43,329 nt of DNA from a bacterium (lineage in GTDB: Bacteria; SZUA-79; Acidulodesulfobacterales; Acidulodesulfobacteraceae), in contig DAHVNW010000015.1 of assembly GCA_027319095.1 (NCBI GenBank), positions 1 to 43,329 of the forward strand, in the 5' to 3' direction. Position 1 is the first letter of the stretch. Each line of letters opens with the position of its first letter. Shown in pieces: positions 13,150 through 41,950 of this stretch. Below the pieces are notes generated by a model that saw only the letters and a list, made by a program, of their open reading frames with translations, searched no databases and was not told where the DNA came from. The position numbers and the translations under genes were made by a program.

Positions 13150-15190
13150 AGTATGGAAGACGACTTTAAAACTGAGAATGATAATCGGTTTTATCGTAAT
13201 TCTAATTTTTGTAGGGATGCTTATAAGCCGGGCATTCGACCTTCAAATCATGGAAGGTTCGAGATTAAAAAAGCTTGCACGGAAGCAATTTCACGCAAAA
13301 ATATATTTTATGCCCGAAAGGGGCAATATTTATTCGTCTAACGGAAGCATACTCGCAGCAAGCGTGAATGTGCCTGGAATTGCCGTAGATTCTTTTATGG
13401 TGAAGCATAAACTTAAAAATGCCGAAAAATTATCTAAAATAACCGGCATAAGTTACGACAAAATAATTAGAATATTAAACCGGAACGTTCAATTTGCATG
13501 GATTAAACGGAGGGTATCCGGACGGACGGCGAAAGAAGTGGAAAAATTAGGTATTCCCGGCGTTGTTTTGGTTAAGCAGCCCGTAAGGTATTATCCCAAC
13601 GGTTCGTTGTTAGCCCATGTTTTAGGATTCGTAGGAATAAACGACAACGGCTTATCAGGGATAGAATATAAATACGACAAATATTTAAAAGGAAACAGAC
13701 GGGCTTTAAAAATTTTACAAGACGGTTTGGGGCAGTATATTTTTATACGCGGCTTCGGTTTCAAAAAAGCGACGCACGGCGATAATATTTATTTGACTGT
13801 TAATAAACAGCTTCAGTTTGTAACGCAGTATTATTTAGATAAGGAGGCAAAGGCGGCAGATTCCAGAGGCGCTTTTGCGATAGTTATGAATCCAAACACG
13901 GGGGCGATTCTTGCTATGGCTGACTATCCGGATTTCAATCCGAATTACTATTGGAAGTATTCTGCGCGATACTGGAGAAATAGAGCCGTTACCGACGATT
14001 TTGAGCCTGGTTCGACTATGAAGCCGTTCATAATTTCTGGAGCATTGCAGGATGGAATAATAAAGCCGGATACCGTGATAAACGGCCATCACGGCGCATA
14101 TTATATAGACGGGATAATCGTGCACGATGTCGAGAACGGGTTCGGACGCATGACTATTAACCAGTTAATCGAGTATTCCTGCAACGTGTGCGCATGCCAG
14201 GTAGGAATGAAGATGGGGAAACCCCGGGTTTGGCACTGGTTAAAAAAATGGGGTTTCTTATCCCGGCCGCATGCCGGTTTGCTCGGCGAATCGGCAGGGA
14301 TAGACAGGCCATTAAGCAAATGGTCGGAAGTCGGCCCATGCGAAGAGGCTTTCGGACAGGGCGCCGCCATTACCGGTTTGCAGGAGATAACCGCCCTTTC
14401 CGCAATCGCAAACGGCGGACTTAGGATAAAGCCTTATATTATAGACAAAATAGTAAACCCGTACGGGAAAATTATTTATAAAGCAAAACCTGAATATTTG
14501 GGGAGAATAATTACGCATAAGGTCGATAGAGAAATCAAATATATGATGAGGTTAGTCGTTAAGGGCGGTACCGGACAGTATTCAAGGCTTATAGATTTTA
14601 AAGTTTGCGGAAAAACAGGCACGGGACAGATTACTAACCCTAAAACCGGAAAATATTATAAAAATAAGTATACGGCTTCTTTTATGGCTTTTGTTCCATA
14701 CAGGCATCCTAAATTAGCGATGCTGGTAGTTCAGCAGAAACCGGCGAAGATAAGTTATTACGGAGGAGCCGTAAGCGCTCCGGTAGCGGGCGATGTTTTC
14801 AAAAGCGCGGTGAATATATTAAACATATACCCCGGCGGAAAAGCATATAAAAAACAATTGAAAGCCGGCGCGAACATATATGACAACTCCGGTGTTTTAA
14901 TCTTGCGCGGCGGTTCCAAAACTACGGACTCCGGCGTTAAAAATGCTTCGATAAAAGACTTTGGAAGTATAACAATGCCGGATTTAAAGGGTTTAACGGT
15001 TTATCGGGCATTAGCGGTTTTAAGAAAATTCAGGTTTTCCCTTAAAATTATAGGAAGCGGATATTTGTATTACCAGAGTATTAAGCCTGGAACGAACTTA
15101 GGCAAAACAGGCAGCGAAAAAGCCTTATTTTTAAAATTCGAACCCTATAAGTATTATTATTTTAAGAAAAATAAAAATAAAAAACCTTAG
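13142..15190 (+). CDS. ftsI: septal penicillin-binding protein FtsI/PBP3-type with C-terminal PASTA domain
   Basis: This 682-aa class B penicillin-binding protein has one N-terminal membrane span (about 12-32), a dimerisation domain, then a transpeptidase domain. The active-site motifs are STMK (Ser291-Lys294), SCN (Ser346-Asn348) and KTGT (491-494). A PASTA-like segment near the C-terminus starts ITMPDLKGLTVYRAL. It crosslinks septal peptidoglycan together with FtsW. The PASTA tail resembles SpoVD/PBP2x-type proteins. The start ATG 13142 overlaps ftsL. Confidence 0.93.
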   Translation: MIRVWKTTLKLRMIIGFIVILIFVGMLISRAFDLQIMEGSRLKKLARKQFHAKIYFMPERGNIYSSNGSILAASVNVPGIAVDSFMVKHKLKNAEKLSKITGISYDKIIRILNRNVQFAWIKRRVSGRTAKEVEKLGIPGVVLVKQPVRYYPNGSLLAHVLGFVGINDNGLSGIEYKYDKYLKGNRRALKILQDGLGQYIFIRGFGFKKATHGDNIYLTVNKQLQFVTQYYLDKEAKAADSRGAFAIVMNPNTGAILAMADYPDFNPNYYWKYSARYWRNRAVTDDFEPGSTMKPFIISGALQDGIIKPDTVINGHHGAYYIDGIIVHDVENGFGRMTINQLIEYSCNVCACQVGMKMGKPRVWHWLKKWGFLSRPHAGLLGESAGIDRPLSKWSEVGPCEEAFGQGAAITGLQEITALSAIANGGLRIKPYIIDKIVNPYGKIIYKAKPEYLGRIITHKVDREIKYMMRLVVKGGTGQYSRLIDFKVCGKTGTGQITNPKTGKYYKNKYTASFMAFVPYRHPKLAMLVVQQKPAKISYYGGAVSAPVAGDVFKSAVNILNIYPGGKAYKKQLKAGANIYDNSGVLILRGGSKTTDSGVKNASIKDFGSITMPDLKGLTVYRALAVLRKFRFSLKIIGSGYLYYQSIKPGTNLGKTGSEKALFLKFEPYKYYYFKKNKNKKP

Positions 15191-15216
15191 AGGGATACCT
15201 GCAAATACAAAAATTT

Positions 15217-16815
15217 ATGAAAATCAAGGATATTATAAAAGATAAAGATTTAAAATTTTCCGTTTACGGAAGCGCCGGCATAAACATTATAGGAATATCG
15301 AACGATTCGCGTAAAATAAAAAAAGGATATCTTTTTGCCGCAAAAAAAGGCGTTAACGTCGATTCTAATATTTATATAGAAGAAGCTATTAGAAACGGAG
15401 CTTCCGCAATTTTAACGGGAGACGTCCTGGCGGTAAAAAAATTTGAAGGCAGCGGAGTTTCCGTAATCATTGCAAAAGCCCCGTTAAAAGCATATGCCGT
15501 TATTTCCAGAAATTTTTTCGGCAATCCGGCGGAAAGGTTAAACGTTATAGGAGTAACGGGAACAAACGGGAAAACCACCGTTACTTTTTTAATAAGATCT
15601 ATTTTAAACGCGGCAGGACATAGTGCCGGATTAATAGGAACGATAGGCTATGAAATAGGCGGACGCATAATCGAATCTAAAAATACTACTCCAGACCCTT
15701 ACGAACTAAATAAGATGTTTTCGGATATTGCGCTCACGAATGGGGCAGCCGAAAAAAGTTGCGTTATGGAAGTTTCGTCGCATAGTTTAGCGCAGGACAG
15801 GGTTTACGGCATTCCATTCGACGTCGCGGTTTTTACCAACCTGACCCGCGACCATCTCGATTATCATAAAAGCATGAAAAGATATTTTGGGGCAAAAAAA
15901 AAGCTATTTACGGAAATATTATTAAAAAGCGGAAAAGCGGAAAAATTTGCCGTAATAAATAACGACGACTACTATGGAAAAATTTTGATAACGGAATTAA
16001 AAGACTATTTAGGCAAAGTAAAAGTATTAGCATACGGACTTGACGAAAACTGCGGCATATCGGCGCATAACATAAATTATTACAGGGACGGCTTAAAATT
16101 TGATATTATTCTTCCGGATAACAATAAAATAAAAAGTGTCCGGTCTAATCTTATAGGCAGTTATAACGTTTACAATATACTTGCCGCGGTTTCCGCCGCA
16201 TATGCCCTTTCCGTACCGCTTGAATATATTTCCGAAGGAATAGAGTCGTTAAGCGGCGTTCCGGGCAGGATAGAAAAAGTAAGCACCGGAAGCGCAGAAT
16301 CGCCTTTGATTTGCATAGATTATGCCCATACGGACGATGCGCTTAAAAGGGTTTTATCCGTTTTGAGAAATATAACGGAAACGGGAAAACTTATAAGCGT
16401 TTTCGGCTGCGGCGGCGACAGGGACAAGGGCAAAAGACCTTTGATGGGCGAACATTCTACGACAATAGCCGATATCAGTATAATTACGTCGGATAATCCG
16501 AGAAGCGAAGACCCTTTATCGATTATAAAGGAAATAGAATCCGGCATAAAAGACGCAAAGTTCGCCGATAAAAAAGGTTTAGGCGGCGCAGCCGTAAAGA
16601 GGGACGGACATGTTTATACCGTCGAGGAAGACCGGACAAATGCTATAAAACTTGCTCTTTCCGTCGCAACGGATGAAGATACGGTTCTTATAGCGGGAAA
16701 AGGGCATGAAGATTATATGATAGTCAAAGAAAATAAGTTTCATTTTAGCGACAGGGAAGAAGTATTGAAATATTATAATAAAATAAAAACAAAAAATTGT
16801 GAAAATAGAATATAA
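15217..16815 (+). CDS. murE: UDP-MurNAc-tripeptide synthetase MurE (meso-diaminopimelate-adding)
   Basis: This 532-aa Mur ligase has an N-terminal UDP-substrate domain (IGISNDSRKIKKGYLF), ATP loop GVTGTNGKTTVTF (Lys119), and the C-terminal DNPRSEDP motif (426-433). DNPR is the signature for meso-diaminopimelate rather than lysine. It is somewhat longer than the usual 480-500 aa, with an extra stretch near 440-470 (KFADKKGLGGAAVKRDG). Start ATG 15217. Confidence 0.95.
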   Translation: MKIKDIIKDKDLKFSVYGSAGINIIGISNDSRKIKKGYLFAAKKGVNVDSNIYIEEAIRNGASAILTGDVLAVKKFEGSGVSVIIAKAPLKAYAVISRNFFGNPAERLNVIGVTGTNGKTTVTFLIRSILNAAGHSAGLIGTIGYEIGGRIIESKNTTPDPYELNKMFSDIALTNGAAEKSCVMEVSSHSLAQDRVYGIPFDVAVFTNLTRDHLDYHKSMKRYFGAKKKLFTEILLKSGKAEKFAVINNDDYYGKILITELKDYLGKVKVLAYGLDENCGISAHNINYYRDGLKFDIILPDNNKIKSVRSNLIGSYNVYNILAAVSAAYALSVPLEYISEGIESLSGVPGRIEKVSTGSAESPLICIDYAHTDDALKRVLSVLRNITETGKLISVFGCGGDRDKGKRPLMGEHSTTIADISIITSDNPRSEDPLSIIKEIESGIKDAKFADKKGLGGAAVKRDGHVYTVEEDRTNAIKLALSVATDEDTVLIAGKGHEDYMIVKENKFHFSDREEVLKYYNKIKTKNCENRI

Positions 16816-38063: not shown

Positions 38064-38138
38064 GCCGGCGTGGCTCAGGGGTAGAGCAGCTGATTCGTAA
38101 TCAGCGGGTCGTAGGTTCGATTCCTATCGCCGGCTCCA
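38064..38138 (+). tRNA. tRNA-Thr (CGT), integration site of the adjacent element
   Basis: The acceptor GCCGGCG pairs with CGCCGGC. The anticodon stem CTGA/TCAG holds the loop TTCGTAA (anticodon CGT), the T-arm is GTAGGTTCGATTCCTAT, and the 3' end is T-CCA. The gene stays complete after integration because the element carries the 3' part. Confidence 0.97.
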
Positions 38139-38139
38139 T
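38090..38139 (+). repeat. attL: 50-bp core direct repeat, copy 1
   Basis: Identical to 41758-41807. It starts at CTGATTCG in the anticodon stem and ends one base past the tRNA CCA. Similarity continues for about 20 bp beyond with three or so mismatches, both copies reaching GTTCAAG. Confidence 0.95.
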
Positions 38140-38165
38140 ATTTAATAAGGTGTTCAAGCCTTTTT

Positions 38166-39666: not shown

Positions 39667-39768
39667 ATGAAATTAGAAAAAGATTTAAGAAAATTTTTAT
39701 TCAACGTTTCAGTTGCAGTAATTGCGGCTGTGGCCTCTGCCTACATTGTAAAACAATTTGATTTATAA
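39667..39768 (+). CDS. 33-aa single-span membrane peptide
   Basis: ATG 39667 follows a strong GGGAGGTG. The peptide has a charged start (MKLEKDLRKF) and one hydrophobic span (NVSVAVIAAVAS). Two TTGACA-like -35 boxes lie upstream (39568 and 39590), the second 17 bp before a weak TAAGTT. A TATAAT on the opposite strand (39551-39556) could serve the HTH gene. Function unknown; no toxin family is recognised. Confidence 0.55.
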   Translation: MKLEKDLRKFLFNVSVAVIAAVASAYIVKQFDL

Positions 39769-39824
39769 TGTAAGCCATTATCATTAATATTTTAAAGGGG
39801 GTTGTTAATGGTATGTTTAGGCCA

Positions 39825-39881
39825 ACAAAAGCCCTGAGCCGTTTTTTTATTAATTTAATTAAAATGGTTCAGGGCTTTTGT
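39825..39881. terminator. bidirectional intrinsic terminator
   Basis: The arms ACAAAAGCCCTGAGCC (39825-39840) and GGTTCAGGGCTTTTGT (39866-39881) pair with one G-T wobble, and a T-run follows on the plus side. It separates the rightward peptide gene from the leftward second recombinase gene. Confidence 0.8.
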
Positions 39882-39889
39882 TTTTTGTA

Positions 39890-40819
39890 TTATTTCCCCA
39901 GATACGTCCTCGATATGTCTTCCCTGTTGTGTCCTAATTCTTCCGAAATAATCCGGCAGGCAGTATGATAGCCCTGTCTTTGCTTATCCGTCATGGCGTT
40001 ATATTTAAGACCCCCTGCGGCGGGAGCGGCTAAGCCAGTTATATCTTTATATCGTTCTTGTGCGTAGTTGTGCCGCAGGGCGTGGGGCGTTATGCCGGAG
40101 TTATTATCGAGCGTCTTTGCCTGTTTAGCGGCATAATCAATGGCGTTCCTGTTATTTTCAATCCTTCCGGTAAAATTATATCCCCTTATATCTTTTGCTA
40201 CTTGCGAAAGGACAACCCCGCCGTCTCTCATATTAAATTCTCTTGGGCGTCCGTTCTTACACCAAGACCCCTTTAATGCTAAATCGTTCCCCTGATTGAC
40301 TATATGTCCTTTTGACAGTTCATATACGACGTGCGCGGCTTCCTCTTTTCTTAATCCATAAGCGGCGGAGAGTTTAAGGGCGGATGAAGCGGCTATATTG
40401 ATTTTATCGAGTTGAGCCATCGTCCCCGCTGAAATAACGGCGGCTTTATTAATATTGGCTTTATTCAATACGTCCCGCCCCTTTGAGATACCGAGCGCCG
40501 CATTATCTATTATGGCAGCTTTATTCCCGCATTGTTCTAATACAGCCCTTAAAATATATGCTTTGTCCTGCATAGTTCCTATTTTATCGCCTTGAGCCTT
40601 CCAGCGTTCGACGACAGCCTTAAAATCATCTTTTGTTAATAATGTCGGGCTTTGCTGTTTCGTATTGACCTTATAACCCATATCCTTAAAATCTCTGGCG
40701 ATTGCTTCCGCCTTTTGTTGTAAATCGTGCTTTGTCTTTTCGGACAGCCCTTTCATGCCGTCCCTTTGCCGCGTCTTGATTTGTGCGGCGTAAAATCTCA
40801 TTTTATATTCAAGTTTCAT
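39890..40819 (-). CDS. second tyrosine recombinase-like protein (Integrase_1-like)
   Basis: This 309-aa protein has an N-terminal helical DNA-binding-like half and a C-terminal half with tyrosine recombinase motifs: YGLRKEEAAHVVY (Arg), HALRHNYAQERY (His-x-x-Arg) and EELGHNREDISRTYLGK (His and terminal Tyr). It resembles the integrase-domain proteins of some integrative elements. It faces left and ends at the shared terminator. The start on the minus strand is 40819 with GAGGTGA upstream. Its role beside a complete integrase is unknown. Confidence 0.8.
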   Translation of the reverse strand: MKLEYKMRFYAAQIKTRQRDGMKGLSEKTKHDLQQKAEAIARDFKDMGYKVNTKQQSPTLLTKDDFKAVVERWKAQGDKIGTMQDKAYILRAVLEQCGNKAAIIDNAALGISKGRDVLNKANINKAAVISAGTMAQLDKINIAASSALKLSAAYGLRKEEAAHVVYELSKGHIVNQGNDLALKGSWCKNGRPREFNMRDGGVVLSQVAKDIRGYNFTGRIENNRNAIDYAAKQAKTLDNNSGITPHALRHNYAQERYKDITGLAAPAAGGLKYNAMTDKQRQGYHTACRIISEELGHNREDISRTYLGK

Positions 40820-41046
40820 GTCATCACCTCTATATATTTGTATTTTGGGCGCAAAAATCCCGTTAATTTGTTGCCTATAAGTTCAAATAGCATTTTAAAA
40901 ATCTTGGGATGCCATACCCAGAGTTTAATTGGTGTTGCCGTCGTCCTTCCAGTTAGAAAGGTCATATCTTTGGTCTCAGGCACTCCTATTCCTGAGAGGT
41001 AATTTCCGTTATCTATTTTTAAAAATCAGATAATAACGGGGTTTTT

Positions 41047-41126
41047 AGCGCCCCCTTCAATGCGTTTTAATTTTTTAAAAAAAATTAAAACTTGCTCGCT
41101 TCGCTTCGCCGCATTTAAGGGGCGCT
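41047..41126. repeat. long imperfect inverted repeat
   Basis: The outer arms AGCGCCCCCTTCAATGCG and CGCATTTAAGGGGCGCT enclose a second palindrome, TTTTAATTTTTT/AAAAAAAATTAAAA. This gives a two-level hairpin. Confidence 0.65.
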
Positions 41127-41237
41127 GGAACGGATAGCATAGCGGTAAATCACAGGGGGGTTGAAAAAAATCCTTTCTGTTCAACTCATAACCATTATTG
41201 AATGGCTTACCGGAGACGGGAGAAAAAAACAGAAGTG

Positions 41238-41332
41238 CTTACAAACTGTTTTGATTTATGTCCGCTTGGGCTTGTTTGCCCCGGACATAAACCCTTCGGG
41301 TAAATCAAAAGGGCGTTTGTAAGGATTTTTTT
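41238..41332 (+). ncRNA. candidate structured RNA with terminator-like T-run
   Basis: Nested pairing: CTTACAAAC (41238-41246) with GTTTGTAAG (41315-41323), and TTTTGATTTA (41249-41258) with TAAATCAAAA (41301-41310). Inside are a hairpin TGTCCG...CGGACA extended by GGGC/GCCC (41259-41287) and a small ACCC-TTC-GGGT hairpin (41291-41301). Seven T follow at 41326-41332. This is a branched structure with an intrinsic-terminator end. No convincing promoter was found, and no known RNA family is recognised. Confidence 0.4.
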
Positions 41333-41336
41333 ATTG

Positions 41337-41356
41337 GATTAACCGGACGGTTAATC
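41337..41356. repeat. perfect inverted repeat
   Basis: GATTAACCG-GA-CGGTTAATC, directly after the T-run of the structured block. Confidence 0.7.
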
Positions 41357-41381
41357 ACGAAAAGAATAAAATATATAATAT

Positions 41382-41402
41382 AATTCTCGCTTAAAGAGAA
41401 TT
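41382..41402. repeat. operator-like inverted repeat
   Basis: AATTCTC-GCTTAAA-GAGAATT directly follows TATATAATATAA, so it may be a repressor site next to a -10 box. No gene follows it. Confidence 0.55.
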
Positions 41403-41621
41403 GCTGAAAAGGGGGGTAGTGTTACCACTATTCATAAAATATTCACGAATGATTTAATATGGAAAATATATAAAATAAAAAAAAATAAGTCAAATAATTT
41501 AATACCGCATGCTCTGTAAAGCGTTTCAGATATACAAAGAGTTATGAAAAACCTCACCCCCCCCCACTGTGATTGACGATGTTTAGAAAGGGCATATTTT
41601 AAGGCTGTTCGGCGTCCTCTA

Positions 41622-41645
41622 TTTGTGCCAAATTTGTGCCAAATT
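41622..41645. repeat. tandem GTGCCAAATTT repeats near attR
   Basis: Identical over 24 bp and in the same orientation as 38186-38209. It lies about 112 bp inside attR. In the circular form the two sets would flank the att core, as arm-type integrase sites do. Confidence 0.8.
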
Positions 41646-41757
41646 ATATACGAAAATATGGAAAATATGCTATGTTATGGTAAAATTAGAAAGTGATAAA
41701 AGCGTTGATATTACTGGGATATACGGTAAATGGCTAATTTTTTAAAACCCCTGTTTT

Positions 41758-41807
41758 CTGATTCGTAATCAGCGGGTCGTAGGTTCGATTCCTATCGCCG
41801 GCTCCAT
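41758..41807 (+). repeat. attR: 50-bp core direct repeat, copy 2 (partial tRNA-Thr)
   Basis: A perfect copy of 38090-38139, comprising the anticodon arm, T-arm and 3' acceptor of tRNA-Thr but no 5' half. It is not a functional tRNA. Confidence 0.95.
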
Positions 41808-41950
41808 GTTTTATAAGGGGTTCAAGAAACTAAAAAAGTAATTAATTAATAATACGCTGTAAAGTTATTGTCTGTCTATCAGAATCTTCCTGGCCCTGCG
41901 CTCGACGTTTTATGTAGATTATTCGCAATAAATTAAGATATTTTTATGTT

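Follow-up and report, generated by a model that had tools for sequence, protein, structure and literature searches.

A nested branched structure recurring upstream of PF12835 recombinase genes, a candidate folded component of the oriT region of a small integrative element

The nested branched structure described here is real, recurs as an architecture in the host family, and belongs to a module, in which it lies 5' of a core inverted repeat and of a gene for a PF12835 protein, in the same sense as both. Our tentative proposal, which we put just short of an even chance, is that it forms a folded part of the oriT of a small element of the integrative mobilizable kind, within a module like that of SGI1; the mobilization role is suggested by the genomic context. 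In the window, that is, the whole stretch of 43,329 nucleotides of bacterial DNA that was analyzed, the structure is part of a 3.67-kb element that is inserted in a tRNA-Thr gene, is bounded by a 69-nt direct repeat with 96% identical copies, and has both the att repeats and the integrase of an integrative mobilizable element (Table 1). The integrase gene and the PF12835 gene are both on the minus strand, and the noncoding block lies 5' of the latter, so that the order in the gene sense is promoter-like site, hairpin, nested structure, core inverted repeat, leader, and the gene start at 40819. At 39668-39882 there is also a small plus-strand ORF of about 33 aa, hydrophobic by eye, and then a 22-nt inverted repeat with 91% complementarity (39824-39882) resembling a two-way terminator. 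Another nested inverted repeat (8,8) is seen at 15000-16000 of the window, outside the element.

Table 1. Coordinates of the element and of the features of its noncoding block
Feature	Position	Strand	Remark
Element end: 3' part of tRNA-Thr plus flank, 69-nt direct repeat	38090..38158	+	96% identical to 41758-41826
Other element end: tRNA-Thr 3' repeat	41758..41826	+	
Tyrosine integrase of the element, PF00589	38166..39245	-	
Second tyrosine recombinase, Integrase_1 PF12835; proposed atypical relaxase	39890..40819	-	
Noncoding leader, from core repeat to gene; weak motifs common to relatives (by eye)	40820..41046	-	
Core inverted repeat AGCGCCCCTTAAATGCG..CGCATTGAAGGGGGCGCT (gene sense); candidate recombinase/oriT core	41047..41126	-	
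Nested structure (stems of 9 and 10 bp, small and large hairpin; internal loop GCCC/CA)	41238..41323	-	
Outer stem, 9 bp, perfect	41238-41246 / 41315-41323		
Inner stem, 10 bp, perfect	41249-41258 / 41301-41310		
Large hairpin with inner GGGC/GCCC	41259-41287		
Small hairpin	41291-41301		
Run of seven T of the original prediction; unconserved	41326..41332	+	read from sequence
Hairpin GATTAACC-GTCC-GGTTAATC adjoining the nested structure	41337..41356	-	
Promoter-like TTGACT-17-TATATT; would drive transcription of the array in the direction of the PF12835 gene	41465..41493	-	

The original prediction for 41238-41323, two hairpins enclosed by a perfect 9-bp and a perfect 10-bp stem, one nested in the other, is confirmed, and its description of a folded multiway junction within a noncoding block of a mobile element is supported. 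For the segment 41230-41340 folded as RNA, z = -5.28 on the plus strand and -5.92 on the minus strand, and none of 200 shuffles was equally good on either strand; with DNA parameters the values were -7.06 and -5.69, again with 0 of 200 shuffles as good. When the 938-nt block was shuffled with its dinucleotides preserved, a nested pair of stems, each of at least 9 bp, appeared anywhere in 3 of 1500 sequences. DNA parameters give the nested form on both strands. As RNA, the plus strand folds best into the nested form plus one extra pair, and on the minus strand, which is that of the neighboring PF12835 gene, an alternative fold beats the nested form by 0.8 kcal/mol. The view that no known RNA family fits also holds, since at the gathering score Rfam matches in the window are limited to a tmRNA and two tRNAs. 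Within 40800-41760, three matches were obtained up to E = 10, all far under the gathering score (best E 0.99), and in seven related sources only tRNAs and one PAGEV RNA reached that score. PAGEV RNA (RF03037) is located at 348-565 of pSIO1 (L049), a Vibrio plasmid also bearing a PF12835 gene.

An RNA ending at the T-run, as originally supposed, finds no such backing as a conserved feature: among 15 loci, 4 have a T-run after the stem on the same strand and 3 have one on the opposite strand. The seven T after the stem on the plus strand are what would be expected of an intrinsic terminator, but the run is not conserved and no convincing plus-strand gene ends there. The branched fold, its recurrence, and its position make both a terminator and a chance palindrome extremely improbable.

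The noncoding block is without a useful DNA relative: a direct search of 61 genomes for relatives of the block and the element returned AT-rich matches and the promoter stretch only, and a search among phages and plasmids returned none. Relatives were traced via the PF12835 protein, which has homologs at E <= 1e-5 in 17 of the 61 genomes; in a profile search of 30 genomes of the family, 11 matches were obtained, 8 of them over the curated cut-off. No PF12835 relatives were found among viral contigs and phages, and none by sequence in the PDB at E <= 0.01. Seventeen upstream regions from the host family were compared (two more were too short) for a nested pair of stems, each 8 bp or longer, inside a span of 110 nt. 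Such a nested inverted repeat is present in 15 of the 17, although ten of these regions form one closer subclass, here called MTKIE, and the independent number is therefore below 15. Shuffles of each region contain a nested pair in 2 to 10 of 150 cases, and other 1-kb stretches of 13 of these loci in 2 of 148. All ten MTKIE regions are positive, as are five of the seven of the window's class; the two misses (G023a and G026a) have the outer stem and a broken inner stem. Most MTKIE loci have the same three-way junction as the window, made of an outer stem, an inner stem, and a small and a large hairpin. By eye, the internal-loop motifs GCCGGA/GGAGCAA and GCYC/CA recur on the gene-sense strand, while the stems vary freely.

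Broken or partial PF12835-like genes are found at G002:C53:8845-9354 (L030, L136), G003:C27:46779-47195 (L132), G014:C59:3719-4057 (L135), and G029:C128:7038-7376 (L032), suggesting decay of old elements. Related elements (L088, L089, L090, L087, and L093) have primase-type genes (Toprim, CHC2, AAA_25) and, by eye only, methylase-, SIR2-, and TIR-like ORFs, a possible defense cargo. In a nonsystematic look at the host-family elements, no genes for a coupling protein or T4SS were recognized.

Pairing is kept while the stems change. Thirteen outer stems, picked by eye, are all different; when the two arms of one locus are set against each other, 108 of 112 positions can pair, compared with 47% of positions for arms of different loci. 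The arms being chosen by hand, this comparison illustrates change with pairing kept and is no unbiased test. Compensatory changes, which the original prediction had named as a check, thus exist between loci, in the form of wholesale stem replacement and of one A-T to T-A double change relative to the closest look-alike, and are absent from the close subclass: in the eight-sequence MTKIE alignment no pair has changed on both sides, so that this subclass alone lacks covariation evidence.

Two checks less open to this bias were made, with a motif and with a model. The motif GCCGGAG-N10-40-CGGAGCAAG occurs at eight places in 30 genomes (reversed control, 0), none of them in the window's own genome, and seven of the eight are able to fold, as judged by eye. 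Four sit 569-974 nt 5' of a PF12835-type gene in the same sense, one of these genes being broken and one of the divergent L097 type; three others fold yet are without such a gene in the locus examined. A model, R1, built from eight MTKIE sequences, has 13 strong places (E <= 4e-14), of which 8 are its own sequences, as well as weaker ones, and matches at E <= 0.1 in 20 of the 30 genomes; it misses the window's own copy. Among 22 R1 arrays examined on both strands with an enzyme-family profile, the enzyme gene was found in 8 (an earlier, less sensitive search gave 7 of 22), the profile not being blind for L163, L097, and some of these loci's own proteins, which it includes. Where found, the gene is downstream and in the same sense in all eight cases. 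In 10 of the 22 there is no enzyme gene despite at least 1 kb of downstream sequence, and in 4 the end of the sequence is reached. Some arrays therefore stand without a PF12835-type gene, and our confidence in the oriT reading, which would otherwise have been an even chance, is lowered slightly. One array subfamily (L113, L115, L120, L121, L123, L124, L125, and L127) has, by eye, core repeats like TTGCGGAT..ATCCGCAA; L115 has a divergent tyrosine recombinase downstream, and there is none in the available sequence of the others.

The closest look-alike of the window's structure, G002:C82 (L128/L163), is one of the weaker R1 places (E 9.9e-5). It has CGCYCTTTTGWTTTACCCGAAGGG and the 3' CAAAACAG in common with the window, and its inner stem carries the A-T to T-A double change mentioned above. 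A divergent PF12835 gene lies 549 nt downstream in the same orientation (23.9 bits against a cut-off of 23; hhalign 95.3%, E 2.1e-8), with a core repeat, recognized by eye, in between.

The residues R157, K188, H246, R249, H297, and Y306 of the PF12835 protein, which we take to be the catalytic residues of a tyrosine recombinase, are invariant in 21 of 21 aligned homologs. As judged from the alignment, the tyrosine-recombinase active site (R, K, HxxR, H, Y) is complete and intact. The core-binding-type domain PF12834 scores 19.7 bits in the same protein, where the cut-off is 22, and is clear in plasmid relatives.

Homologs of this protein are present in 113 plasmid records, of which 79 are typed as nonmobilizable, 25 as conjugative, and 9 as mobilizable; 14 of the 113 were examined in detail. 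A gene for a coupling protein (VirD4/TraD-like) follows the enzyme gene in five of the 14, with one small ORF between, and in two more (pNCHU2750e and pDSM107133_i) it is annotated elsewhere nearby, so that in nine it does not adjoin the PF12835 gene; in seven no coupling protein is annotated in view, the gene table being incomplete. The two coupling proteins tested match PF02534 and PF10412. Small ORFs also follow the enzyme gene in the plasmid relatives, and none of three tested matches a recombinase domain. The layout of these small plasmids is similar to that of the elements: a long perfect hairpin whose arm contains GTCACT is present in 10 of the 14, about 300-800 nt before the start of the enzyme gene, and the Acinetobacter stretch with this hairpin occurs in 36 plasmid records, all typed as nonmobilizable. 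Across 13 aligned Acinetobacter sequences the inner arms are constant, and 8 of 29 predicted pairs switch Watson-Crick type, all of them in the outer arms, which indicates that the hairpin form is kept, beyond a mere binding sequence. No such switches were seen, in the same 13 sequences, in the branched element before the hairpin.

Between the nested structure and the gene, the core repeat has in relatives a fixed inner part, CTTMAGTAT..ATACTGAAG or CTTCAGTTTG..CAAACTGAAG; the variant of the window is CTTAAATGCG..CGCATTGAAG. The pattern CTTMAGTRT-N5-35-AYACTGAAG, which misses this variant, has five places in 30 genomes, four of them inside the module (control, 0). A complete active site and core arms that in several loci stand 7 nt apart, like a recombinase core site, would also suit a resolvase or inversion enzyme, the core repeat and nested structure then being its folded recombination site, comparable to the single-strand attC sites of integrons. 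We regard such site-specific recombination as unlikely, because the core arms stand anywhere from 3 nt (pRIVM6) to several tens of nucleotides apart and because coupling-protein genes adjoin the enzyme on some plasmids. RSF1010 has ssi sites, single-strand initiation sites for primase, and the nested structure might be such a site, at which second-strand synthesis would begin following transfer or replication. A RepB-type primase gene is indeed close upstream of the array in some elements (PF16793 in L080, and related ORFs), but no primase ORF occurs among the ORFs of at least 70 aa of the window's element, and one element may have another type of primase than the next with the structure unchanged, making this explanation very unlikely.

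As an oriT region, the module on the minus strand would consist of promoter, hairpin, nested structure, core repeat, leader, and the gene for a tyrosine-recombinase-type relaxase (PF12835). The enzyme would nick and hold one strand at the core repeat, and the nested structure would fold upon unwinding of the strand, or in the transcript. The folded structure may then help to assemble or position the transfer complex, with a helper conjugation system supplying the remaining functions.

Rather unlikely, in our estimate, is a structured RNA, in which the nested structure would be a domain of a transcript that starts at the promoter-like site (41493-41465) and is directed at the PF12835 gene. Such a transcript would correspond to the sgm-sRNA of SGI1 and act in trans in transfer. 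The promoter-like site is correctly oriented and lies in a 36-nt stretch (41462-41497) that is identical in another genome (G023:C70:550-585, L003), but promoter-like sites in 40700-41800 are at chance frequency, with 3 found and 3.7 expected. A long leader is conserved across nine aligned MTKIE-type loci, where about 650 nt from core to gene are conserved by eye; the same stretch is weakly conserved across seven loci of the window's class. Of 12 aligned loci, one is without the small hairpin; in the other 11 its gene-sense loop is GNAA (10) or GAA (1), although GNA and GNNA loops are stable in DNA as well. Isolated mismatches inside the predicted stems include 13 G.T and 8 A.C (49 others), but this wobble excess is small, and counted by position the MTKIE alignment has 6 G.T against 4 A.C. 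Counted by cells, that alignment has 18 G.T and 6 A.C on the sense structure, and 6 and 23 on the antisense structure; the Acinetobacter alignment has 57 and 5 on the former and 11 and 30 on the latter, so that here again each predicted structure favors its own strand. In SGI1, moreover, the sgm core is found on the mpsA side of oriT, between the two, and not on the distal side. In favor of DNA are the logic of an oriT, the folding of both strands as DNA, and the slight preference of the window's gene-sense RNA for another fold; the mismatch counts favor neither. We lean to a folded oriT element over a structured RNA. A second copy of the 36-nt stretch, at G023:C70 1302-1336, is 97% identical over 35 nt; both copies are on a 5.8-kb contig of the same host family, with inverted repeats nearby. 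A -10 box right before the stem in the MTKIE loci was considered and dropped, its bases adjoining another hairpin.

A broader proposal, possible but on balance doubtful, is that the PF12834/PF12835 "integrases" are widespread unrecognized relaxases, each with a modular folded oriT in which GCCGGA/GGAGCAA and GCYC/CA join changing stems. If so, many small plasmids typed as nonmobilizable would be mobilizable, and the movement of small plasmids and tiny genomic islands without a recognized relaxase would be accounted for. Structure-guided or RNA-assisted initiation of DNA transfer would then have a second place of study, besides SGI1.

Among known systems, the attC sites of integrons offer the case of a tyrosine recombinase that recognizes a folded single strand by its structure; the present loci differ in that no cassette array was seen, and in having as core repeat a long inverted repeat whose inner arms are fixed. 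TcpM of pCW3 and MobK of pIGRK are described as tyrosine-recombinase-type relaxases with oriT upstream (PMC8152469, PMC9299015). Both of them, and also MpsA of SGI1, are said to be without a core-binding domain (PMC8152469), and TcpM and MobK are set beside PF12835 here by their description. PF12835 itself is treated as a prophage integrase in the part of PMC9769806 that mentions it, and is listed in that of PMC11104534 among nucleases of elements classed as nonconjugative. Among the matches listed in a literature search that covered few subscription journals and had preprints outside its scope, no paper describes PF12835 as a relaxase.

As far as the anatomy shows, the module resembles the mobilization region of SGI1. 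The PF12835 family is likened to MpsA by anatomy and not by sequence, and has the N-terminal core-binding-type domain PF12834, whereas in SGI1 that domain is supplied by a separate protein, MpsB (98 aa); no ORF of at least 70 aa adjoins the PF12835 gene of the window, where a separate MpsB, one of the defining traits of the SGI1 region, is thus lacking. The hosts differ as well, and here the nested junction is distal to the core repeat. An IncC traN probe matched E. coli genomes at 15 chromosomal places, two of which were examined and are SXT-like conjugative elements by their gene lists. In the SGI1 papers, MpsA is a tyrosine-recombinase-like protein proposed to be an atypical relaxase, the oriT has 125 bp with three inverted repeats, and the stretch from oriT to mpsA encodes a small RNA, sgm-sRNA, which is essential (PMC6414798, PMC9299015); the nic site had not been found at the time of PMC6414798. 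The order there is oriT stem-loops, sgm-sRNA, mpsA, and what stands here in the region of sgm-sRNA is a conserved leader only. The likeness consists of an enzyme of the tyrosine-recombinase kind with a role in transfer, here a proposed one, several conserved inverted repeats upstream of its gene, a distant upstream promoter, and a long noncoding stretch before the gene (PMC9299015, PMC6414798, PMC8409611). Finally, the three oriT stem-loops are reported to be kept in islands related to SGI1 (PMC8409611), and a conserved array of inverted repeats is likewise found upstream of the enzyme gene in the elements described here.
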